48,264 nucleotides of DNA. It comes from a virus. The notes under the pieces are model-generated. The model saw only the letters and a program-made list of their open reading frames with translations. It was not told the DNA's origin and searched no databases. The DNA lies in IMG/VR virus record IMGVR_UViG_3300018077_000002, positions 1 through 48,264 of that record, one strand, 5' to 3'. Shown one piece after another: positions 1-46,270 of this stretch. The translations under genes were made by a program, and so were the position numbers. Position 1 is the stretch's first letter, and each line of letters opens with the position of its first letter.

Positions 1-123
1 CCTTGAGAGGCTTTGAGGAGTGGTGCGACAAGCGCAAGCCGACCCCGCTCTGCATCGAGCAACCCTCAGTCAACACGCGATACGGATTAGCTGGCTGTCC
101 TGATTTTAAGGGCGTGCTCTCCA
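1..123. repeat. Terminal direct repeat, left copy (circle joint)
   Basis: Bases 1-123 are identical to bases 48142-48264. The reading frame of the PD-(D/E)XK nuclease is continuous through the joint, which shows that the window is one circle (or terminally redundant molecule) opened inside that gene. A perfect overlap of this length is what an assembler leaves on a closed contig. It may also reflect circular permutation of the packaged DNA, but sequence alone cannot separate the two. Confidence 0.95.
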
Positions 124-389
124 TTTCAGAGCGACATCTTATCGGTGTCAAGGCCATCATCGAGCTCAAATTCACGGCAGCCCTAATCAAGGCGCATCGG
201 ATCCAGACGCGCACGTACCGGCGGCTCGACGGTTATCAGGATTGCCGGCTCGGCGTGCTCGTGCGCATCGACAGGGGGACCGGAGCGGTCGATGAGCAGA
301 TGGTCTTGTGGGATCAGGAACCACATCACGACGCAGCGGTGCTGCACGCGCTGGGGTTGCTGCAGTGGAGCCGCCAGCATGGTTCATAA
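1..389 (+). CDS. PD-(D/E)XK nuclease, C-terminal part (gene continues from 47844)
   Basis: This is the 3' part of a gene that starts at 47844 and crosses the joint; the full protein is 228 residues. The part here carries the core of a Cas4/lambda-exonuclease-like PD-(D/E)XK fold: an acidic residue in CIEQPS, then GLAGCPDF (the D), then IIELK (E-x-K), and further on a QTRTYRRL helix that resembles the QxxxY motif of this superfamily. Such enzymes resect DNA ends 5'-3' for phage recombination or replication. The next gene starts directly after the stop, and the gene before (47137) belongs to a family often seen beside phage exonucleases. The fold assignment is good; the exact substrate is inference. 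Confidence 0.75.
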   Translation, partial: LRGFEEWCDKRKPTPLCIEQPSVNTRYGLAGCPDFKGVLSISERHLIGVKAIIELKFTAALIKAHRIQTRTYRRLDGYQDCRLGVLVRIDRGTGAVDEQMVLWDQEPHHDAAVLHALGLLQWSRQHGS

Positions 390-557
390 ATGGCCATTTA
401 CCTAAAATCTCTCATACAGCCATGCAAGTGTGGAAAGAAGGCAACCGTTGAGGCATTCAATGCCAGCAATGCGAGCATCGGAATATTTTGCAAGAGATGC
501 GGTCAGCAGGAAATTGATAGAATCAACAAGGAACAAAGGAGGAGTTATGCCCAATGA
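390..557 (+). CDS. 55-residue zinc-ribbon microprotein
   Basis: An ATG directly follows the stop of the nuclease gene (TAA then ATG at 390), and the frame runs to TGA at 555-557, overlapping the start of the next gene by 11 nt. The peptide has two cysteine pairs, PCKCGKKA near residues 11-18 and FCKRCGQQE near 33-41, which look like a single zinc ribbon, followed by a charged helical tail. Tight coupling on both sides supports a real gene despite its size. Function is unknown; small zinc ribbons in phages are often nucleic-acid or protein binders. Confidence 0.65.
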   Translation: MAIYLKSLIQPCKCGKKATVEAFNASNASIGIFCKRCGQQEIDRINKEQRRSYAQ

Positions 558-1692
558 AGCGTTAGACACGCAGGAACTCGCCGTTGTCGTCGCACCGCCG
601 GACCGACCGTTAACCGTCGCCGAGATGCTGGGGCAGGCATGGATCGTTCAGCAGTTGCTCGATCACGTCATGCAAGAGGGTGTTCACTATGGGAAGATCC
701 CTGGGTGCGGGGATAGGCCTACTCTCTTGTTGCCGGGGGCCGAAAAGATCAACATGACGTTCCGGCTCGCCCCGAAGCTCCACGTCGAGGACCTCTGCCA
801 GCCGCCGGAGCGGTATCGCTACCGCGTGCGATGCGCCCTCTACACCATCCACGGCGGAGTGTTCGTCGGCGAGGCGTTCGGGGAAGCCTCCTCTGACGAG
901 GAGAAGTATCAGTGGGAGAAGGCGCTCAACACCAAGCACTACGAATCTGTGCCGCCGGATCAACGCCGGATCAAGTTCAGGAAGAAGTACAAGTCAGACG
1001 AGGTCGAGGAGATCGAGCAGGTCAAACAGAATGTGGCAGACCTGGCTAACACGGTGCTCAAGATGGCAGTTAAGCGCGCGATGATCTCGGCCTCCAGGGG
1101 GGCGACGGCCGCCAGCGACATCTTGGAAGTTGACCTCGACGAGGAGACGGTCGCCAAGATGGTCGCGGCCGAGGCGCAAGGCGAGCCGCTCCCGAAGGCC
1201 GAGAAGAAGGCCAAGCCGAAGCCAGCTCCATCGTTGCCGTTCGGCAGCTCGAAGGGCAAGGCCATCACTGACCAGAGCGTGCCGGTCGATGACCTTAAAG
1301 TCATGCTCGCGGCGAAGCAGCGTCATCTCGGTGACGACAAGCGGGACACGCGGTGGGACGCTGCCGACCAGGCGTTCATCGCGGCCATCAACGAAGAGCT
1401 CAAGATCAGGACAGAAGTGGCTGCTGCCGACGATAAGCCTCATCAACCTGCCGCGCAGCAACCCTCTGCGGCTGCGAAACAACCGGACACGAAACAGGCT
1501 GAACCTGCCGTGATTCAAGTGAGCGATGACGACTGGAGGACATTCATGCTCGATGCGACAGTTGAGCACGCGGACGTATTCCGCAAGCTGATGGCTGAGC
1601 CAGCGTTCCGCGTCAAAGTGGGCCTGACGCTCCCGCTAGAGAAGCGATCGAACTTCATGGCAAGGTTTCGAGAGTTGATCAAGTCTCAGTAG
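547..1692 (+). CDS. Conserved phage protein, candidate recombination/annealing factor (381 aa)
   Basis: The ATG at 547 is chosen because a strong AGGAGG lies just upstream; the open frame extends further 5' without another good ribosome site. Recognisable blocks are VHYGKIPG and LLPGAEKINMTFRL near residues 47-74, and ANTVLKMAVKRAMISA followed by ATAASDI near 167-192. These blocks belong to a widespread phage/plasmid family that I recall being encoded near exonucleases and ssDNA-annealing functions. The second half is low-complexity, rich in Lys, Ala, Pro and Gln, and probably a flexible linker to a C-terminal helical domain. Its place behind a PD-(D/E)XK nuclease fits a recombination pair, but the biochemical role is inference. 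Confidence 0.6.
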   Translation: MPNEALDTQELAVVVAPPDRPLTVAEMLGQAWIVQQLLDHVMQEGVHYGKIPGCGDRPTLLLPGAEKINMTFRLAPKLHVEDLCQPPERYRYRVRCALYTIHGGVFVGEAFGEASSDEEKYQWEKALNTKHYESVPPDQRRIKFRKKYKSDEVEEIEQVKQNVADLANTVLKMAVKRAMISASRGATAASDILEVDLDEETVAKMVAAEAQGEPLPKAEKKAKPKPAPSLPFGSSKGKAITDQSVPVDDLKVMLAAKQRHLGDDKRDTRWDAADQAFIAAINEELKIRTEVAAADDKPHQPAAQQPSAAAKQPDTKQAEPAVIQVSDDDWRTFMLDATVEHADVFRKLMAEPAFRVKVGLTLPLEKRSNFMARFRELIKSQ

Positions 1693-1710
1693 AAGGCCAG
1701 AAAATAACAC

Positions 1711-1739
1711 TTTATTTTAGCCAGATAATAGCCTATAAT
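1711..1739 (+). promoter_or_regulatory. Candidate sigma70-like promoter (TTTATT-N17-TATAAT)
   Basis: The hexamer at 1711-1716 and a perfect TATAAT at 1734-1739 are 17 bp apart, in an AT-rich gap between two genes. The -10 box sits only 2 nt from the ATG at 1742, so a transcript from here would begin near 1746. It would then give a nearly leaderless message starting at the ATG at 1748 or lower. The -35 hexamer is one base from that of the two other candidate promoters of this genome (TTTACT). Confidence 0.5.
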
Positions 1740-1741
1740 CC

Positions 1742-1933
1742 ATGCTCATGCAGATCAAGACCCAACGACGTGGGCGCCGGACCGTGCCGATGGAGCAGCG
1801 AGCATGTGCCTTCTGCAAGCGGATCTTTGAGCGGCCAGTCAACATGCCATACAAGGTCTATTGCCGGAACGTCTGCACGATGCTAGCCTTCTACGAGCGC
1901 GAGCTGGTGGCAGCTGGCAAGACGGTCACGTGA
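1742..1933 (+). CDS. Small Cys-rich protein (zinc-finger-like), 63 aa
   Basis: Short basic protein with CAFCKRIFERP and later CRNVC, i.e. CxxC...CxxxC spacing that resembles a treble-clef or zinc-ribbon knuckle, in a background rich in Arg and Lys. The start is uncertain: ATGs at 1742, 1748 and 1790 are in frame and none has a clear Shine-Dalgarno sequence, while a TATAAT box lies just before 1742. It precedes the replication protein gene, so a DNA-binding regulatory role is conceivable but unproven. The roughly 120 bases after it carry only weak inverted repeats and a short T tract near 2040; I see no convincing terminator there. Confidence 0.55.
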   Translation: MLMQIKTQRRGRRTVPMEQRACAFCKRIFERPVNMPYKVYCRNVCTMLAFYERELVAAGKTVT

Positions 1934-2056
1934 CACGATAAGACGATCCCTGCAGTCCCAGGGTAGAGCTTGCCACGGCAACGCGGCAAGAGAGAAAGGG
2001 TCAAGGCTTTGATTGGGACTGCGATTGAGGCCTGAAGCCCTTTTTCTTTGTTGGCC

Positions 2057-2821
2057 ATGTCTATCTATAGACCTGTCTGTACGTATGTGTGGAATGATGA
2101 TAAGTTCCCATTCCTTTCTGATGACGCCCAACTGGTGTGGTTTCACATCTTCACCCACCCAGCAAGCACCCCGCTTGGACTGCTCCGCACGTCGCTTGAA
2201 GGGCTGGCTGCCGACAAAGACAGAAATCGTGGGAAATGGACAATGAAACGATACCGGGAATCATTCACCGAACTAGCCCGGAATGATTTCGTGAATCATT
2301 GCGAGGAACACCTCGTCATCGGCTTTCCCAAGTTCTTCCGGACCGACCGCCAACCCAACCATCCCCGCAATCCGAACGTGCTTCGTTACTGGGGGAAAGT
2401 GTACGACGAGTTCCCGTCGTGCCACTTAAAAGATCATGTATATCAATCACTTAAACTATTGCTTGAATCATTCAAGGAATCATTTAGGCAATCATTCACT
2501 AAATCATTCGAGGCTTGTTCACCACCAGTAACAGTAACAGGAACAGTAACAGTAACTCCTCCTCTCTCTCTTTCTTTATCTGATAATCATGACTGCAGAA
2601 AGAAGGAAAAGAGTCGGCGCGTCATGGTTGATTTGCCCACCGATTGGCACTTCACTGATCGGCACAAGATCATCGCGGAAGGGCTCGGCGTGAACGTCCA
2701 CCGCGAGGCCGTGAAGTTCAAGGACCGATGCATCGCCAAGGGCCTCCAGTACAAGGACTGGGACGCGGCGTTCCGCATGTGGCTTACAAAAGCCCAAGAG
2801 TTCAAGGAGGCGCGTCCATGA
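2057..2821 (+). CDS. Phage replication protein (lambda O / DnaD-like organisation)
   Basis: A 254-residue protein. The N-terminal third looks like a winged-helix domain (FPFLSDDAQLVWFHIFTHP, then an LGLLRTSLEGLA helix), as in phage initiators that recognise iterons. The middle is low complexity and contains four tetrapeptides of the form xSFx encoded by 12-bp DNA repeats, then a Val/Thr tract. The C-terminal block (LPTDWHFTDRHKIIAEG, then AKGLQYKDWDAAFRMWL) is typical of phage replication proteins that hand the origin to a helicase or its loader. No helicase or loader was recognised nearby, so host enzymes may be recruited. The ATG at 2057 lacks a Shine-Dalgarno site; a TTG at 2048 is the alternative. 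Confidence 0.75.
   Translation: MSIYRPVCTYVWNDDKFPFLSDDAQLVWFHIFTHPASTPLGLLRTSLEGLAADKDRNRGKWTMKRYRESFTELARNDFVNHCEEHLVIGFPKFFRTDRQPNHPRNPNVLRYWGKVYDEFPSCHLKDHVYQSLKLLLESFKESFRQSFTKSFEACSPPVTVTGTVTVTPPLSLSLSDNHDCRKKEKSRRVMVDLPTDWHFTDRHKIIAEGLGVNVHREAVKFKDRCIAKGLQYKDWDAAFRMWLTKAQEFKEARP
2465..2512. other. Putative replication origin: four tandem 12-bp iterons
   Basis: Four head-to-tail 12-mers start at 2465, 2477, 2489 and 2501 and share the core AATCATT (forms GAATCATTCAAG, GAATCATTTAGG, CAATCATTCACT, AAATCATTCGAG). Related copies occur at 2258 and 2293, an inverted one near 2281 and a degenerate one at 2444. Just downstream come AGTAAC hexamer repeats and a long CT-rich tract (2521-2580). 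Iterons inside the initiator gene followed by a strand-biased tract are the arrangement of the lambda O/ori region. Function is inferred from position and repeat form. Confidence 0.6.
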
Positions 2822-3168
2822 TCTGCGGTCAATGCGAAGCTGAATTTGAGGGAAACAGATGCGAATGCGGTTGGACAGCCCGAGTGCAGCCTCTAATGCT
2901 GCATCGAGCATTGCACCAACCCGGCATCACGCTGGAGGAGTTCGGCGTGGACCTGTTCGAAGCGATCAAGACGGCCTCGGCGCTGACGTGGACGACGAAG
3001 ATGCGGAAGGCCGCAGCAGACGATCCGCGGCCCGATCGCATTGAACTATCGCTTCAGAATATGAGACACCGTGAAGCGGCCTTGAGCAAGCAACTTGTAT
3101 TGCTGACGAAGCGAGTTGGAGTTGATGATCAGCGGCGGATCGCAGAACTGTTGACACAAGGAGGGTAG
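2818..3168 (+). CDS. Zinc-ribbon protein of the replication region (116 aa)
   Basis: The start overlaps the stop of the replication gene as ATGA, so translation is coupled. The N-terminus MICGQCEAEFEGNRCECGW carries two cysteine pairs that form a probable zinc ribbon. The remainder is helical and charged, with no recognised domain. Coupling to the initiator suggests a DNA-replication accessory role, but no family was identified. Confidence 0.65.
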   Translation: MICGQCEAEFEGNRCECGWTARVQPLMLHRALHQPGITLEEFGVDLFEAIKTASALTWTTKMRKAAADDPRPDRIELSLQNMRHREAALSKQLVLLTKRVGVDDQRRIAELLTQGG

Positions 3169-3172
3169 CGCC

Positions 3173-3427
3173 ATGCCAGCCGTGCCGAAGCCATCACAAG
3201 CAGCGAAAGCCTCTCGGCCGACTCCTCAGCGAAGAGTGCCGCGGAAAGCGCATGAATTGCGACTGCCTCAGCGTGGCAAGATGGCGCGCGTCATGGAGGC
3301 TCTGCGCGCCAAGGGAGGCATGACGAAAGGTCAGATCACTGTTGAATGTCTCGTTCAAGGCTTGAGTGGGAACAGCGTGCGTATCGCCGCGTACCTGGCG
3401 AAGAAACTGACGCTGCTGAAGGCATAG
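3173..3427 (+). CDS. Small basic protein, possible winged-helix DNA binder (84 aa)
   Basis: The first 35 residues are rich in Lys, Arg and Pro and probably disordered. The second half (KMARVMEALRAKGGMTKGQI, then a helix ending AAYLAKKLTLLKA) has the helix-turn-helix pattern of small winged-helix domains that sense or bind DNA. It starts 5 nt after the previous stop with AGGAGGG upstream. The following gene begins 3 nt after its stop. No specific homolog recognised. Confidence 0.6.
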   Translation: MPAVPKPSQAAKASRPTPQRRVPRKAHELRLPQRGKMARVMEALRAKGGMTKGQITVECLVQGLSGNSVRIAAYLAKKLTLLKA

Positions 3428-3429
3428 CC

Positions 3430-3855
3430 GTGAGCGAGTTTGAATAGTTTGGCCTCTTTCAGGAGTTCGAGATTCCTCAAGCTAAAGAGGTACTACGCGT
3501 GGGCTGCTTGCCCAGCGTCGAGGATAACGGGGAGCTTGACGAAATCGGCGAGCCGGTCGCAGATGAGATCGTCGAGGAAACGATCGAGGCGAACGCGGAG
3601 CGAGGTGACCTCGAGCAGACGGCGTTCATCGACTTTGACGAGTGGTGGAAGGCCGAGTGGCATGGCATGCCTGAGTTCATTCAAGAAGATCTGAATCCGT
3701 GGAAAACGCTGTACGTTCACTTCAAGACGCGTGAAGACATGCACTCGTTCGCACGGCTTGTCGGGCAGCGACTCACGTTCGAGACCATCTCGATCTGGTT
3801 TCCACCGGACGCCATCGCGACCATCTATGACAGGCGGTACGTCAATGCACCCTAG
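3430..3855 (+). pseudogene. Conserved modification-region protein with an in-frame amber codon (functional restart possible at 3499)
   Basis: A GTG at 3430, 2 nt after the upstream stop, opens a frame that meets TAG at 3445-3447 (codon 6) and then stays open to 3855. The residues after the amber codon (FGLFQEFEIPQAKEVL) read like genuine protein and match what I recall of this family's N-terminus. The C-terminal part, with EWWKAEWHGMPEF, YVHFKTRED and SIWFPPD, is a conserved phage block often next to TAGT glycosyltransferases. A shorter 118-residue product could start at GTG 3499. TAG is a normal stop elsewhere here, so this is a nonsense mutation, a sequencing error, or evidence that the real start is 3499. 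Confidence 0.5.
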
Positions 3856-4711
3856 CTGTCCGATCTACATCATCTCGAAAGGGCGATGGGAGACGAGGCA
3901 CACGGCTAAGTCGCTCGACGAGCTCGACGTCGCCTACTCGATCGTGATCGAGCCGCAGGAATTTGAACAGTACGCAGCCGTCATCGAGCCTCGCAAGATC
4001 CTCACGCTGCCGTTCAACAACCTCGGGCAGGGCTCGATCCCCGCGCGCAACTGGATCTGGCATCACGCGCTCGGAACTGGCGCGGCGCGCCACTGGATCA
4101 TGGACGACAACATCGACAGGTTCTGGCGCCTGAACAGGAACACCAAGATTCCGGTCAAGACCGCGGCGATCTTCAAGGCGATGGAGGACTTCGTCGACCG
4201 CTACGAGAACGTCGCCATCGCAGGCCCGCATTACTACATGTTCGCGCCTCGTAAGGACAAGGTGCCGCCGTATTACTTGAACACGCGGATCTACTCGTGC
4301 ATCCTGCTCCGCAACGATCTGCCGTATCGGTGGCGCGGGCGCTACAATGAGGACACGGACCTGTCCCTCCGCGCCCTGAAGGATGGCTGGTGCACGATCC
4401 TGTTCAACGCCTTCTTGGCGAAGAAGCTCCCGACCATGACGATGATGGGCGGGAACACCGATGAGCTCTATCAGGGCGACGGGCGCCTCCTGATGGCTCA
4501 GTCGCTCAAAGAGCAGCACCCAGACGTCGTGCAGATCACGCGCAAATGGAACCGCTGGCAGCACCAAGTCGACTACAGTGGATTCAGAGCGAACCGCCTC
4601 ATCAAGCGGCCGGATCTCAACGTCGCCCCGGGGATCGACAATTATGGGATGGTGCTTCAGATCGACGGAGAAAGCGAGAGGAGCGCGCCGTGTCCACTAG
4701 TTCAGAAATAA
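3845..4711 (+). CDS. TET-associated-type glycosyltransferase (TAGT family, GT-A fold)
   Basis: A 288-residue protein whose ATG overlaps the end of the previous gene. Diagnostic blocks are YIISKGRWETRHT (residues 8-20), VIEPQEFEQYA (34-44), LPFNNLGQGSIPARN (55-69), HWIMDDNI (83-90, the DxD-like metal/sugar-nucleotide motif) and YNEDTDLSLRALKDGW (167-182). They match the TAGT family described around TET/JBP oxygenases and DNA hypermodification, related to the GREB1 C-terminal domain. Family knowledge predicts transfer of a sugar to a modified base in phage DNA. No TET/JBP oxygenase or hydroxymethylpyrimidine synthase was found here, so the acceptor is unknown; a glycan or protein acceptor remains possible. 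Confidence 0.8.
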   Translation: MHPSCPIYIISKGRWETRHTAKSLDELDVAYSIVIEPQEFEQYAAVIEPRKILTLPFNNLGQGSIPARNWIWHHALGTGAARHWIMDDNIDRFWRLNRNTKIPVKTAAIFKAMEDFVDRYENVAIAGPHYYMFAPRKDKVPPYYLNTRIYSCILLRNDLPYRWRGRYNEDTDLSLRALKDGWCTILFNAFLAKKLPTMTMMGGNTDELYQGDGRLLMAQSLKEQHPDVVQITRKWNRWQHQVDYSGFRANRLIKRPDLNVAPGIDNYGMVLQIDGESERSAPCPLVQK

Positions 4712-5211
4712 TAGAAGGCTGTCTGTTCGGGCCATCTGAACTTACGTCTCGGTTGATTCTCGTAGGTCAGGCACCGAACCGCGTCGGCAATCCTCTGACT
4801 CCGCTGGAAGGTCGCGCCGGCGCTGAGCTGTGTTCGCTGTTCGGCTGCACGATGTCAGACTATCTTCATAAGACGGTGCGCCTCAACGTGCTTCACGCAT
4901 GGCCAGGCAAGGCTGGCAAAGGAGATCGGTTTCCAAAGGCCGCGGCCAAGGTCAGAGCAAGGAAAGTCGCCTCGACGTTCAACGGACGGCAGGTGCTGTT
5001 CGTTGGGCTCGCGACGGCCGAGGCGTTCGGCGTCGATCACGACGCGCTGACGTGGCAGTCGTATGGCTGGAGAATGGCGCGAGGCTGGTCAACCTTCAAG
5101 GCGGCCATCGTCCCGCACCCGAGCGGCATCAATCGCTGGTGGAACAGCGCGCGTCATCGTCGTGCCGCAAGACGATTCATGCGCAAGACGTGGCGAGCAA
5201 TCATTCAATGA
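4690..5211 (+). CDS. Uracil-DNA-glycosylase-fold protein (173 aa)
   Basis: GTG at 4690 with AGAGGAG upstream; it overlaps the glycosyltransferase gene by 22 nt. Motif I is LILVGQAPNRVGNP (residues 22-35) followed by LEGRAGAEL, corresponding to the GxxPG...FxGxaG pattern of family 4/5-like uracil glycosylases. The second signature, VPHPSGINRWWN (141-152), matches the HPS(G) loop that enters the minor groove. The canonical acidic/Asn residue after motif I is replaced by Asn-Arg. The fold can excise or merely bind odd bases. Translational coupling to the glycosyltransferase and methyltransferase suggests work on a modified base, which is inference. Confidence 0.7.
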   Translation: MSTSSEIIEGCLFGPSELTSRLILVGQAPNRVGNPLTPLEGRAGAELCSLFGCTMSDYLHKTVRLNVLHAWPGKAGKGDRFPKAAAKVRARKVASTFNGRQVLFVGLATAEAFGVDHDALTWQSYGWRMARGWSTFKAAIVPHPSGINRWWNSARHRRAARRFMRKTWRAIIQ

Positions 5212-6008
5212 TCAGTTATAAACACGTGGCTGGCGGTGGCGTGCCAGGCGGACACAATGTACTGTATGACGGCAAACGTAGTCCGTTCATCACGCCGATG
5301 AAAGAATGTCAGTCGATTGAACTGCGGCATTCAGATGTCGTTGTCGACATCGGGGCGTACGTCGGAACGTATGCCATCAGGGCTGCACGATTTCCAGTGA
5401 AAAAGGTCATAGCATATGAACCGACGCCAGAGACGTTCGAGGTCCTCTCGCTCACCAAGCTGCCCAACCTTGAGCTGCACAGTGCTGCCGTCGTTGGTGA
5501 CGGCTGCTCATCAATCAAGCTGTTCATCTCTTCTGGCATCGGCGTCACGAACAGCACCGTCCTGTCGTATCGCAAGGCGCGCGCGGTTACCGTCCAGGCT
5601 GTGCAATATGAAGAGGCTGTAGCTGACGCCTCAATCGTAAAGATTGACATTGAGGGAGGAGAATATGGCCTGCCAATCGTGCAGCCCACGCTGAGGGCGA
5701 TCATCATTGACTTCCATAAGATTCCAGGTGACTGGCTGATGATGGCTGGGCGCATCATTGCTAATTTTGAGGCTGCTGGCTTCAAGGCAGTCATTAGTCC
5801 GAACTGGTCATGCGGCTGGACGTGCGCCGGGAGCTGGCTCAGGCCGATTGCAACAAGCGGTCAATGCGATGATCTGATGTCCGGGCAGTTCTGCTGTGGC
5901 TGTGGCTCTAAAATCCTCGCGTCACGTCGCGCGCTTTGCAGTGACTGCTGGCACTCATGGTCAAAGAAGCATCGTGATGGATATATGCAGGCGGTGAATA
6001 GCATATGA
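5208..6008 (+). CDS. FkbM-type SAM methyltransferase with C-terminal zinc ribbon
   Basis: 266 residues; the ATG overlaps the previous stop (ATGA). A Rossmann methyltransferase is clear: VVVDIGAYVGTY (44-55, SAM loop), AYEPTPETF (69-77, acidic residue binding the ribose), and VKIDIEGGEYG (144-154), the KxDxEG signature of the FkbM family. After residue 225 a separate module with FCCGCGSK and CSDCW looks like a zinc ribbon, which is unusual for FkbM enzymes and suggests nucleic-acid or protein binding. FkbM proteins usually O-methylate sugars, so methylation of the glycan added by the upstream glycosyltransferase is an attractive but unproven role. Confidence 0.8.
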   Translation: MISYKHVAGGGVPGGHNVLYDGKRSPFITPMKECQSIELRHSDVVVDIGAYVGTYAIRAARFPVKKVIAYEPTPETFEVLSLTKLPNLELHSAAVVGDGCSSIKLFISSGIGVTNSTVLSYRKARAVTVQAVQYEEAVADASIVKIDIEGGEYGLPIVQPTLRAIIIDFHKIPGDWLMMAGRIIANFEAAGFKAVISPNWSCGWTCAGSWLRPIATSGQCDDLMSGQFCCGCGSKILASRRALCSDCWHSWSKKHRDGYMQAVNSI

Positions 6009-40145: not shown

Positions 40146-40502
40146 ATGCATCGTCCTCTCGGTCACGCACTGGCTCTGATCTTATGTTGGGCCGTGACGG
40201 CGCTGCCGGGCCGCGTGATCGACGGCGACACGTTCGATGTGAGCGCGTCGATCTGGCTCAGCCTGGCGGCAGTCGAGCGCGTGAGGCTGCTCGGCGTGGA
40301 CGCGCCAGAGCTGAAAACCGCGACCCTTGAGGCAGGGTTGGCGGCCAAACAATTCACGGAGCACTGGCTGGCCCAAGGACCGATCCACCTGACGGCGTGC
40401 AAACGAGATTCGTTCGGGCGCCTCTTGGCGAAAGTCCAGAATGAACAAGGCGAAGATTTAGCCGAGGCATTGATCAAAGCGGGACTAGGGATTTCGAGAT
40501 AG
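40146..40502 (+). CDS. Thermonuclease-like (SNase) protein with secretion signal
   Basis: 118 residues. A hydrophobic N-terminus (LGHALALILCWAVTALPG) looks like a signal peptide, followed by the SNase OB fold: RVIDGDTFDV (Asp near 26-28), RVRLLGVDAPEL (Arg, Asp 52, Glu 55) and CKRDSFGRLLAKV (Arg 87), all catalytic positions of staphylococcal nuclease. The mature enzyme would act outside the cytoplasm and degrade DNA and RNA. Phage-borne secreted nucleases may free DNA from lysates or attack competing DNA, but this is inference. Confidence 0.75.
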   Translation: MHRPLGHALALILCWAVTALPGRVIDGDTFDVSASIWLSLAAVERVRLLGVDAPELKTATLEAGLAAKQFTEHWLAQGPIHLTACKRDSFGRLLAKVQNEQGEDLAEALIKAGLGISR

Positions 40503-42551: not shown

Positions 42552-42579
42552 TTTACTTCTCCACTTAAAGGGTTATAAT
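42552..42579 (+). promoter_or_regulatory. Strong candidate early promoter (TTTACT-N16-TATAAT)
   Basis: TTTACT at 42552-42557 and a perfect TATAAT at 42574-42579 lie in the largest non-coding gap. Transcription would start near 42586, where an ATG lies behind AGGAG. The message then passes through a strong RNA fold and the hammerhead ribozyme. The -35 region TTTACTTCTC nearly repeats that of the late promoter at 12927. Confidence 0.6.
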
Positions 42580-42585
42580 AGGAGC

Positions 42586-42720
42586 ATGAGAAACCGCTAT
42601 GAGACTCCCTCACACATTCTATCTAGGCCCGTGCAGGCGCGAGCGGCGCGTCCTCATAGCCGCGTCTCACCGCCACAGGGCTCGCAGAGCACGGGCCGCT
42701 CTCAGGAGGAAGCGCTATGA
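42586..42720 (+). CDS. Possible 44-residue leader peptide
   Basis: ATG 42586 is almost at the predicted transcript start, with AGGAG right before it (partly inside the promoter). The frame ends TGA 42718-42720 overlapping the next ATG. The peptide is basic and rich in Arg, Ser and Pro. Because the same DNA forms a strong RNA fold, the frame may be incidental, or translation may control the fold as in leader-peptide attenuation. Confidence 0.3.
   Translation: MRNRYETPSHILSRPVQARAARPHSRVSPPQGSQSTGRSQEEAL
42626..42697 (+). ncRNA. Structured 5' leader RNA
   Basis: A perfect 9-bp stem, GGCCCGTGC (42626-42634) with GCACGGGCC (42689-42697), encloses a perfect 6-bp stem, GCGAGC (42639-42644) with GCTCGC (42680-42685), separated by a small purine-rich internal loop. 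A 4-bp GGCG/CGCC stem and a 22-base loop lie inside. The fold ends 6 nt before AGGAGG of the first gene. It matches no riboswitch class I recognise. Confidence 0.55.
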
Positions 42721-42923
42721 GACACTACCAACAGTTAATCGTTGAGGCAACTGGCTGTTCGGTTGCCGATGCCGTCGAGATTGAAGAAATCATGCGGCAA
42801 GACATCTTCCATTCCACACTGGACTGGATGAGCAGTCAAACGCTGGAGCGTGCGGCCAGATTAGCCATGGCAAGCATGCACGCAATTAAGCGGCAAATTG
42901 CAGCTTATCGTGCCATTCAATAA
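42717..42923 (+). CDS. Small conserved early protein (68 aa)
   Basis: First gene after the early promoter, behind the module AGGAGGAAGCGCTATGA. The sequence YQQLIVEATGCSVADAVEIE, then EIMRQDIFHSTLDWMSSQTL is helical with a conserved STLDW block that I recall from short phage proteins. Function unknown. Confidence 0.6.
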   Translation: MRHYQQLIVEATGCSVADAVEIEEIMRQDIFHSTLDWMSSQTLERAARLAMASMHAIKRQIAAYRAIQ

Positions 42924-42935
42924 GGAGGAAGCGCT

Positions 42936-43160
42936 ATGAAAATCAATCAACGCACACGCACGAGAGAATCTATCAGCAGCAGCATTCGCGAGGATGACAT
43001 CATTTATGCAGCAGGAGATGTAAGAGCTGCGATGGTTACAACTGCTCGTCATTTGTATCGGTTCAAAATCGATATGCTTCAAATGACGAGATCAGAACAA
43101 GAAACATTTAGGATAGCTATCAACCAGATGTTGAAAGATGGCCTTGAAATTAAATGTTGA
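42936..43160 (+). CDS. Small early protein (74 aa)
   Basis: Carries the same start module (AGGAGGAAGCGCTATGA) as the gene before. The protein is basic and helical: RTRTRESISSSIREDDIIYA, then MVTTARHLYRFKIDMLQMTR. Its stop codon lies inside the extended stem I of the hammerhead ribozyme, so ribosomes finishing this gene would disturb ribozyme folding. Function unknown. Confidence 0.55.
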   Translation: MKINQRTRTRESISSSIREDDIIYAAGDVRAAMVTTARHLYRFKIDMLQMTRSEQETFRIAINQMLKDGLEIKC

Positions 43161-43163
43161 TAA

Positions 43164-43219
43164 CTCCCCTGATGAGTCGCTGAGATTCGACGAAACCGGC
43201 CTTCAAGGCCGGTCGGGAG
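43164..43219 (+). ncRNA. Type I hammerhead ribozyme
   Basis: All core elements are present in order: CTGATGA at 43169-43175; stem II GTCG/CGAC (43176-43179 with 43188-43191) closed by an 8-base loop; GAA at 43192-43194; A43195 pairing T43213; stem III CCGGCC/GGCCGG (43196-43201 with 43207-43212) with a 5-base loop; C43214 as the cleavage-site base. Stem I is CTCCC/GGGAG (43164-43168 with 43215-43219) and continues as GTTG/CAAT beyond an asymmetric internal loop, the usual place for the loop II contact. The open helix is stem I. Self-cleavage is predicted between 43214 and 43215, 64 nt before the DUF932 gene. Confidence 0.92.
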
Positions 43220-43278
43220 GCAATGACGCAGCCCACCGCAGGACTTCCGGTGAAAGAGGCCCGCAAGAGGAGGACGCT

Positions 43279-44376
43279 ATGAGAGGAAGAACCTTACAGG
43301 AATTGGCCGCAGAGATCGAGCGGCAGGCTACCAGCAAGCGCGACTTCGTCGCGCCAGCCAACAAGTTGCAGTTGGAAGAAGTCCATGCTGGCGATCCGCA
43401 AAGACGCGCGGTACAACTCGCCATGCAGAACGGCAATGGAGGTATGCGCTTCGGCCTCACCAGCCTGGCTCATGAGCAGCTGGCGTCGAGGCTGGAGATC
43501 CCGAAGAGCTACTATGATAGATGCTTGGGTGAGGCTCCATGGTTGCTGACGGACAACGTCAACCACTGGCTCAGCACGAAGCCGGGGAAGTACATGGTGC
43601 GGACGCTCGACGGGCAGGCGCGGGCATTCCTGAGCGAGCGCTACCGGCCGCTGGACAATGTGGACCTGGCCGAGGCAGTGCTGCCGATTATCGCCGACAA
43701 GCGCTGGATGGTCAGGGACTGCGAGATCACGGAGCGGCGCCTCTACATCAAGGTGGTGTCGCAAGAACTCCAGGCCGTGATCCATCACAACAAAGCGCGG
43801 CACGGCAACGATCACGTGGTCCACCCAGGGCTGGTGATCAGCAACTCCGAGGTGGGCTTAGGCATGGTGCGCGTGGCGCCGTCGCTCCACTGGCCGCACT
43901 GCTTCAACATCGCGCTGGTGGACGAGGCGGGGACGAGCCGCATGCACGTCGGGAAGAAAGACGAGCGCTTCGGCGACCTGGCCGAGGAGTTCTTCGCCGA
44001 CGAGACGCGCAGGCAGAGCGACCGTGCTTTCTGGCTCAAGGTCCATGACGTGGTGTCGGCCACGCTCACCCAGGCGCTGTTCGAACGCATGGTGGCGAAG
44101 TTCGAGCTGGCCACCGCGGCGGAGATCGAGGGCGACCCCGTGAAGGTGGTCGAGCTATCCGCCAAGCGGTTCGGCCTGAACGAGGGCGAGCGAGTGTCGG
44201 TCCTCAAGCACCTGATCGAGGGCGGCGACCTGACGCTGTACGGGTTGAGCGGGGCCATCACGCGCGCGGCCCAGGACGACAGCCTGTCGTACGATCGCGG
44301 CACCGAGCTTGAGAAGCTGGGCGGCGAGATCGTCGAGTTAGATCGGCACGCGTGGAAAGAGCTTCAGGCCACGTAG
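43279..44376 (+). CDS. DUF932-family phage/plasmid protein (365 aa)
   Basis: ATG 43279 behind AGAGGAGGACGCT. Diagnostic blocks are SYYDRCLGEAPWLLTDNVNH, VRTLDGQARAFLSERYRPLD (residues about 110-130), CEITERRLYIKVV and PGLVISNSEVGLGMVRVAPS with HVGKK. DUF932 proteins are common on phages and plasmids; their function is not established, though a link to DNA replication or anti-restriction has been proposed. The open frame extends upstream through the ribozyme, but only this start has a ribosome site. Its mRNA should have a ribozyme-generated 5' end. Confidence 0.8.
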   Translation: MRGRTLQELAAEIERQATSKRDFVAPANKLQLEEVHAGDPQRRAVQLAMQNGNGGMRFGLTSLAHEQLASRLEIPKSYYDRCLGEAPWLLTDNVNHWLSTKPGKYMVRTLDGQARAFLSERYRPLDNVDLAEAVLPIIADKRWMVRDCEITERRLYIKVVSQELQAVIHHNKARHGNDHVVHPGLVISNSEVGLGMVRVAPSLHWPHCFNIALVDEAGTSRMHVGKKDERFGDLAEEFFADETRRQSDRAFWLKVHDVVSATLTQALFERMVAKFELATAAEIEGDPVKVVELSAKRFGLNEGERVSVLKHLIEGGDLTLYGLSGAITRAAQDDSLSYDRGTELEKLGGEIVELDRHAWKELQAT

Positions 44377-44386
44377 GCTGGGAGGG

Positions 44387-44435
44387 GCAGGGACTTCGGT
44401 CCCTGCTAACCAACAGCCCGGTCCCAAGTCCGGGC
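44387..44435 (+). other. Two intergenic hairpins, one with a UUCG tetraloop
   Basis: GCAGGGAC-TTCG-GTCCCTGC (44387-44406) is a perfect 8-bp stem with the extra-stable C(UUCG)G loop. It is followed by GCCCGG/CCGGGC (44416-44421 with 44430-44435) with an 8-base loop. No T-run follows, so these are more likely mRNA stabilisers or processing signals than terminators. The next ribosome site comes 7 nt later. Confidence 0.6.
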
Positions 44436-44454: not shown

Positions 44455-44874
44455 ATGAGGTGTCCAGACTGCAACAAGTTCGTCGGGTATGACGAGGCCG
44501 ATCCAGAAGTGAATTCGCTTGAAGTTGATGACGAGGGTCAGGTCAGCGCCGAGGTCCGCATCGTCAATTGTTGCCAGGATTGCGGCAATGAACTGAAAGA
44601 GGCGAACTTTCAATTTGAGACTGATCACGCCGACGATGTGAAGGAGCACGTTGGCGAAGGCCACGGCCTAGAGATCGAAGAAGAAAGCTGCGAGCGGACG
44701 AGCCGGTCTGGCAATTTCAAAAACGGCGTGTTCATCCCAGGCGGTGGGCGGTATGCGAAGACCTTCTATGGCGTGAGTCTCGGCTATGCGATCAAGTGCG
44801 AGTGCGAGAAGCTCGATCTGCATGGCACGTTAGAAGATGAAGAGCAGGCGAGCGGCATGGAGGAATTGGTCTAA
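44455..44874 (+). CDS. Zinc-binding acidic protein (139 aa)
   Basis: Start module AAGGAGGAATGCTATGAG. MRCPDCNKFVGYDEADPEVN and VNCCQDCGNELKEANF give two zinc knuckles (CPDC, CCQDC), followed by DHADDVKEHVGEGHG and a YGVSLGYAIKCECEKLDLHG segment with further Cys. Overall very acidic. I recall similar proteins in other phages beside DUF932 genes. Function unknown; acidic zinc proteins may mimic DNA. Confidence 0.6.
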   Translation: MRCPDCNKFVGYDEADPEVNSLEVDDEGQVSAEVRIVNCCQDCGNELKEANFQFETDHADDVKEHVGEGHGLEIEEESCERTSRSGNFKNGVFIPGGGRYAKTFYGVSLGYAIKCECEKLDLHGTLEDEEQASGMEELV

Positions 44875-45547: not shown

Positions 45548-46270
45548 ATGACACCAACACCAACATCGGTAGTGCCGTTTCAAACATTTCGTGACTTATT
45601 ACATAGCCGGTTTAATGGACTTCTCCTCCGAGGCAAGCATAAGCGGAATAGCCAAGCGTGTACGCTCGAACTCGCTCATGCGGCAGTCGGGGATGCATGG
45701 TCTGATACCCCGGATAAATGGCCAGACCTGCGCGCCCTGAATGACGCGCCGTGGTCCAACGATTTAGCCCGGACCGCTGGCCTTGTGCCGGTCATGGAGG
45801 CGTATTGGGAGTGGGACGCCTGGCCTCGCACTCGACAGGTAGAGACCATTACGCGCCTAGCCATCCTCACGGTGCAACGTATCATTGCTGACCTGCCCGA
45901 TTTGCCCGCTGCCGTGAGAACACAATGTCGAGCGGTTGCGACGCTCAAGGAGGCGGCGCAGGCGGCGTGGGGGGCGGCGCAGGCGGCGGCGGGGGCGTGG
46001 GCGGCGCAGGCGGCGGAGGCGGCGGCGGGGGCGGCGCAGGTGGCGGCGCTGGCGTGGGCGGCGCAGGCTGTGGAGGCGGTGGCGTGGGCGGCGCAGGCGG
46101 CGGCGCAGGCGGCAGGGGCGGCGGTGGCGGCGGCGGCGCAGGCGGTGGGGGCGGTAGCGGGGGCGGAGGTGGCGGCGGCTGGGGCAGCCGATGCCGTCTT
46201 GCAGCGAGCCTGTGCATGCTGGATTGAAGCGGCAGCCATGAAAGCGGAGCCAGAACGGAAGTTATCATGA
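45548..46270 (+). CDS. Protein with a long Ala-rich AAQAA-type repeat (240 aa)
   Basis: The N-terminal 130 residues are ordinary (VPFQTFRDLLHSRFNGLLLR, WPDLRALNDAPWSNDLARTA, VPVMEAYWEWDAWPRTRQVE). From about residue 135 to 218 the sequence is almost only Ala with Gln, Gly, Val, Glu and Trp (AAQAAWGAAQAAAGAWAAQA), then normal helix resumes (ADAVLQRACACWIEAA). It reads as an amphipathic helical repeat domain, not as random low complexity, because flanking sequence and frame are kept. I recall similar Ala-rich proteins in other phages and bacteria. Function unknown. Confidence 0.6.
   Translation: MTPTPTSVVPFQTFRDLLHSRFNGLLLRGKHKRNSQACTLELAHAAVGDAWSDTPDKWPDLRALNDAPWSNDLARTAGLVPVMEAYWEWDAWPRTRQVETITRLAILTVQRIIADLPDLPAAVRTQCRAVATLKEAAQAAWGAAQAAAGAWAAQAAEAAAGAAQVAALAWAAQAVEAVAWAAQAAAQAAGAAVAAAAQAVGAVAGAEVAAAGAADAVLQRACACWIEAAAMKAEPERKLS
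45951..46195. repeat. GGCGGCGCAGGC-type low-complexity DNA repeat
   Basis: About 245 bases consist of GGC/GCG/GGG triplets with interspersed GCAG, nearly all G and C, with strong purine (G) bias on the + strand. Several frames are open across it for that reason. It encodes the Ala-rich domain. Such a tract can slip during replication, so its length may vary between virions, and G-runs could form quadruplexes. Confidence 0.75.

Follow-up and report, generated by a model that had tools for sequence, protein, structure and literature searches.

The DNA analysed in this study, hereafter the window, comprises all 48,264 nt of the IMG/VR virus record IMGVR_UViG_3300018077_000002. The record carries genes for a terminase, a portal protein and a major head protein and belongs to a tailed phage, and no DNA similarity to the window was detected in GenBank phages. 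At the centre of the locus is a DUF932-like gene (phrog_1362; 43279–44376, plus strand, as are all features below) that encodes a protein of 365 residues and is preceded by a Shine-Dalgarno sequence, AGGAGG, at 43268–43273. Three further genes around it were taken from the list of open reading frames (ORFs), none of which has a family match: ORFs of 68 and 74 residues upstream (42717–42923 and 42936–43160) and an ORF of 139 residues downstream (44455–44874). The 68-residue ORF is the first gene past a candidate sigma-70-like promoter, TTTACT-16-TATAAT (42552–42579; 10 of 12 matches), which may mark the transcript start. Two such sites occur in the window versus 1.2 expected in shuffles, making the promoter weak evidence on its own, and it is on this promoter-like site that a location of the genes in an early operon is considered plausible.

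The assignment of the 365-residue protein to DUF932 (PF06067) was made via its relatives, as four proteins that are 40–45% identical match DUF932, while its own Pfam score gives no DUF932 match. Its predicted fold matches phage DUF932 models, and a fold search of the PDB with the DUF932 model returned no match among solved structures. Elsewhere in the window, there is a strong match to a TET-associated glycosyltransferase (PF20691; 3731–4711), a protein that may take part in modification of the phage DNA. An FkbM-type methyltransferase and a staphylococcal-nuclease-like protein are found at 4899–6008 and 40146–40502, and a 240-residue ORF with a long alanine-rich, AAQAA-like repeat and no family match lies at 45548–46270.

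Between the 74-residue ORF and the DUF932 gene is a type I hammerhead ribozyme (HHR) whose core and inner stems occupy 43164–43219, as located by the core pattern, a three-stem descriptor, a check of the pairing and the position of the Rfam match. All core bases characteristic of the type I HHR are present: C3 to A9 as CTGATGA (43169–43175), G12 A13 A14 as GAA (43192–43194), the closing pair A15.1-U16.1 as A43195-T43213, and H17, a position that excludes G, as C43214. Stem I, which is the open stem as in other type I HHRs, pairs CTCCC (43164–43168) with GGGAG (43215–43219); stem II pairs GTCG (43176–43179) with CGAC (43188–43191) around the loop CTGAGATT; and stem III pairs ACCGGCCT (43195–43202) with AGGCCGGT (43206–43213) around the loop TCA. 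The 5, 4 and 8 pairs of these stems are all Watson-Crick (17 of 17), in full agreement with the complete core and perfect stems that had been described in an initial reading of the letters and ORFs (the sequence-only reading). That reading had also extended stem I across an asymmetric internal loop, and there are indeed three more pairs (43157–43159 with 43221–43223) past an AUAA/G loop, which form a weak outer helix and bring the HHR to 43157–43223. Both this internal loop and the 8-nt loop II are available for a tertiary contact, which we infer from their presence. The TGA stop codon of the 74-residue ORF (43158–43160) is located in the outer helix, and the predicted cut, C43214^G43215, is 64 nt upstream of the DUF932 start at 43279, both as previously claimed.

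The reading frame of the DUF932 gene continues upstream without a stop codon as far as an ATG at 43138, giving a 412-residue ORF (43138–44376) in the ORF list, and consequently the hammerhead-like stretch might be considered to encode an N-terminal extension of the DUF932 protein. Homology of the protein begins at the ATG at 43279 with its strong Shine-Dalgarno sequence, however, and relatives begin at the equivalent codon, which makes a coding role for the stretch exceedingly improbable.

How often such a motif arises by chance depends on how much of it is specified. The bare HHR core pattern is not rare, with 0.36 occurrences expected per shuffled window, whereas the three-stem descriptor, which covers all three HHR topologies (types I, II and III), gave seven matches with a stem sum of at least 16 in 6,021 dinucleotide shuffles (0.0012 per window); the stem sum of the window HHR is 17. 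The same descriptor found no match in the reversed sequence of about 2 Mb of related loci. A window-wide scan with the Rfam type I model (RF00163), which the sequence-only reading had put forward as a check, had its sole match exactly at 43164–43219, with a score of 16.6 bits against a cut-off of 34. That low score says little, since the same cut-off misses nine of the ten HHRs in the array at locus L444, only one of which passes it. At the gathering threshold, no HHR of any family was identified by Rfam in the whole window. Weak matches to the HHR were also obtained with RF00008 and with the RAGATH-1 hammerhead model (RF03152; 43135–43219, 26.3 bits against a cut-off of 56.3), and the plain type I layout describes the HHR better than that of RAGATH-1 does. 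Covariation in the stems at related loci, also suggested as a check, was found: across six type I HHRs compared at DUF932 loci, 10 of the 14 paired positions differ in sequence while pairing is retained, a result to which the descriptor itself contributes by requiring short stems. Together, these data confirm the motif as a real hammerhead at the level of sequence and secondary structure, and support the original claim that a type I HHR lies in phage DNA with a small gene on one side and a DUF932-type gene on the other.

The one confident Rfam RNA match in the window, and the only one to pass the gathering threshold, is to a second ribozyme that was overlooked in the sequence-only reading. This is a Twister-P5 (RF02684; 44379–44433, 57.6 bits against a cut-off of 37.6, E = 1.7e-9) that starts 2 nt past the DUF932 stop codon (44374–44376), between that gene and the 139-residue ORF and on the same strand. 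Every position of the Rfam model, which is without pseudoknots, is matched, and its predicted cut, placed as is usual for twisters, is U44407^A44408. The motif itself is an ordinary Twister-P5; what is notable is its position after a stop codon and opposite an HHR. Its recognition changes the locus from a gene with a single leader ribozyme to a bracketed gene, as the DUF932 gene is enclosed by two predicted self-cleaving ribozymes of unrelated classes.

The explanation that we favour is gene separation. On a polycistronic transcript, cleavage by the HHR between 43214 and 43215 and by the twister near 44407/44408 would release nucleotides 43215–44407 as a 1,193-nt (1.19-kb) mRNA that carries DUF932 alone, has a Shine-Dalgarno sequence of its own and is thereby separated from the genes before and after it. 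The most likely benefit would be that the DUF932 message becomes independent of its neighbours in stability or translation. The sequence and secondary structure of the HHR and twister, their shared strand, their exact place at the ends of the gene, and the recurrence of ribozymes at the same boundaries in distant relatives are observed; that the RNA is cleaved, constitutively and with such a benefit, is inferred. On these features, we consider that the pair probably acts in constitutive gene separation on a long phage transcript.

The released RNA could also have a different fate, in which its 5'-OH and 2',3'-cyclic phosphate ends would be joined by a host RtcB-type ligase to give a circular DUF932 mRNA or other spliced product. 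The order of the ribozymes should give exactly such ends, and both would be on one 1.19-kb RNA. However, no helix that clearly joins the ends was seen, and Perreault et al. sought spliced or circular products of such ribozyme arrays and found none (PMC3088659). We therefore regard a circular product as very improbable.

To place the gene separation reading in a wider context, relatives of the DUF932 protein were collected. A search of IMG/VR with the protein alone yielded no relatives and an alignment query was needed; three such alignment-based scans led to a tree of 132 distinct proteins, including those of three GenBank phage loci, and the gene maps of the relatives are based on DUF932 homology only. 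HHRs were identified at DUF932 boundaries in seven other phages, counting one near-identical contig pair once. Those upstream of the gene are of type I at L223 and L294 (paired with L293), type II at L060 and L274, and type III at L071 and L197. Type I HHRs were found downstream at L019 and L274, and at L019 the DUF932 stop codon is inside the hammerhead core. Twisters occur at such boundaries as well, with one just upstream of DUF932 at L603 (62 bits) and one at the DUF932 stop at L017 whose score, 34.7 bits, is slightly under the cut-off. A single gene boundary thus has four ribozyme architectures across phages: HHR types I, II and III and twister. For the seven upstream HHRs, that of the window included, the predicted cut is 35–75 nt before the start codon (64, 75, 69, 70, 39, 54 and 35 nt).

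HHRs in these phages are also clustered. Eight contigs analysed over their whole length, about 290 kb in total, contain 21 HHRs, every one of them close to DUF932 and on its strand; four of these are in contig G053. The most extensive set is at L274 (G051; IMGVR_UViG_3300049458_000012), where nine HHRs, eight of type II and one of type I, surround DUF932 on one strand within 5.5 kb (49–5591) at a spacing that resembles one per gene. A search of fifty whole records with the type I/III core pattern identified four true HHRs, each within about 4.5 kb of DUF932. Other searches were negative: eight loci of named or GenBank phages that encode a DUF932 relative carry no ribozyme near the gene, no credible HHR was obtained from the DUF932 loci of prophages within bacterial genomes (two weak matches were judged to be due to chance), and an exact pattern combining the HHR core with loop II of the window had no match in IMG/VR. 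In Gordonia phage VanLee (L006:1–983), the gene for a Ro-like protein, near a DUF932 relative, adjoins two sub-threshold matches to YrlA, a Y RNA-like RNA.

The ribozyme arrangement is not required by these genes, as approximately 90% of DUF932 relatives are without a recognised ribozyme, a proportion that refers mainly to HHRs and Twister-P5. Mapping onto the tree requires 7 changes for the boundary label and 11 for the presence of any nearby ribozyme, indicating repeated gains or losses of ribozymes. The rarity of ribozymes among the relatives, together with the score of the window HHR under the Rfam cut-offs and a competing stem II register (GAGUC/GAUUC) that is favoured by ~1.5–4 kcal/mol in nearest-neighbour folding, which ignores the core and tertiary contacts, would be consistent with an inert or decaying motif, a remnant shaped like a hammerhead with no function. 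Against this, the core is complete and none of the 17 inner pairs is lost, a combination with the low chance frequency given above; the HHR has an intact twister as its partner, and ribozymes recur at the same DUF932 site in other phages. Functionless decay is accordingly quite unlikely in our estimation.

The relatives also bear on whether cleavage is controlled. The HHR could be a regulated switch, under allosteric or translation-coupled control, in which ribosomes at the stop codon, or a ligand, would determine cleavage of the mRNA; such a mechanism would make use of the stop codon that the 74-residue ORF has in outer stem I. Consistent with it, the TGA of the core closes an upstream frame of at least 60 codons in 29 of 153 phage type I HHRs sampled, versus 9 and 5 for the other frames. 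However, the ribozymes at DUF932 boundaries differ in topology and class and have no common stop position or aptamer-like domain, and the presence of another ribozyme downstream of the gene is more in keeping with processing. The coupling of translation to cleavage proposed in the sequence-only reading is likewise not borne out, as no stop-codon position is kept in relatives, the boundary ribozymes differ, and the outer helix is short, at 3 to 5 pairs. Because the architecture of the cutter changes while the cut stays at a near-fixed distance from the start codon, selection appears to act on the cut itself and not on a particular RNA, which argues against a one-RNA switch. We consider regulation of this kind unlikely, and gene separation remains the reading that we prefer.

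Both ribozymes and their arrangement are of a known kind. Clusters of HHRs of types I, II and III that flank single genes or short gene blocks have been described in prophages, with processing into single-gene mRNAs proposed as their role, cleavage in vitro demonstrated for three and activity in vivo for one (Perreault et al. 2011, PMC3088659). The window differs from those clusters in having a twister on one side, and in that the genes flanked there are not constant, whereas here the DUF932 family is flanked repeatedly and by changing ribozyme types. With the RAGATH approach, HHRs and twisters have been found to share the genes near which they are enriched, frequently those of Mu-like phages, and to be enriched in each other's vicinity as well, for a reason stated to be unknown (PMC10085705); DUF932 is not named among the associated genes in the text of that study, the gene lists of Roth 2014 and Weinberg 2015 aside. 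The HHphage ribozyme of haloviruses HF1 and HF2 is a variant HHR located 13 nt upstream of an early gene, and the 5' end of the transcript has been mapped close to its cut (PMC3088659). Unlike the window HHR, it has a variant core, an archaeal virus as its source and a helicase gene as its neighbour, and no second ribozyme is described in that study. The initial claim that no HHR is tied to this gene pair stands insofar as no paper in the literature searched joins DUF932 and ribozymes, but not for the general arrangement, since HHRs flanking single phage genes have been published (PMC3088659). The notable aspects are the mixed HHR/twister bracket and the swapping of ribozyme classes at one site. 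What self-cleaving ribozymes do in phages is viewed as an open question (PMC6155905, PMC10085705), for which the window, with its HHR and twister around one gene, offers a compact, testable case.

Ribozyme arrays extend far beyond DUF932. Unbiased HHR pattern scans of IMG/VR returned at least 120 loci per pattern, and of the 240 loci among the matches listed the descriptor confirmed 228. Two or more HHRs occur in 91 loci among the matches listed, on one strand in every case (91 of 91), at a median spacing of 630 nt, the longest series having 11. At L582, L444, L535, L399 and L455 there are eight to eleven consecutive HHRs on one strand, most of them under the Rfam cut-offs. Twister-P5 arrays were found as well: a phage contig (L615, 5672–11422) has fourteen above the Rfam cut-off, all on the same strand within 5.8 kb, and there are ten at L592, eight at L608 and seven at L613. 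Sets that mix the two classes are uncommon but real, as Twister-P5 was found in none of 49 multi-HHR contigs, whereas an HHR accompanies the twister in five of 39 twister loci, always on its strand. L588, L591, L600, L607 and L621 are further phage loci at which a twister and an HHR are close together on one strand.

Judging from these arrays, operons separated by ribozymes can far exceed in length the examples with two and three ribozymes described by Perreault et al. (PMC3088659). It is quite possible, although we would stop short of calling it probable, that HHRs of types I, II and III and twisters are interchangeable, general gene separators in long operons, with up to 9–14 in succession, and that the cut is kept 35–75 nt before a given start codon. 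HHRs were rejected as DUF932-specific markers, as DUF932 is present in only three of the 240 HHR loci listed and two of the 39 twister loci; it is one of many genes with ribozymes nearby. The 29 of 153 cases given above, in which the TGA of the core CTGATGA is the stop codon of the upstream gene, refer to the type I HHRs of loci L343–L582, and the feature is exemplified at L019:4074.
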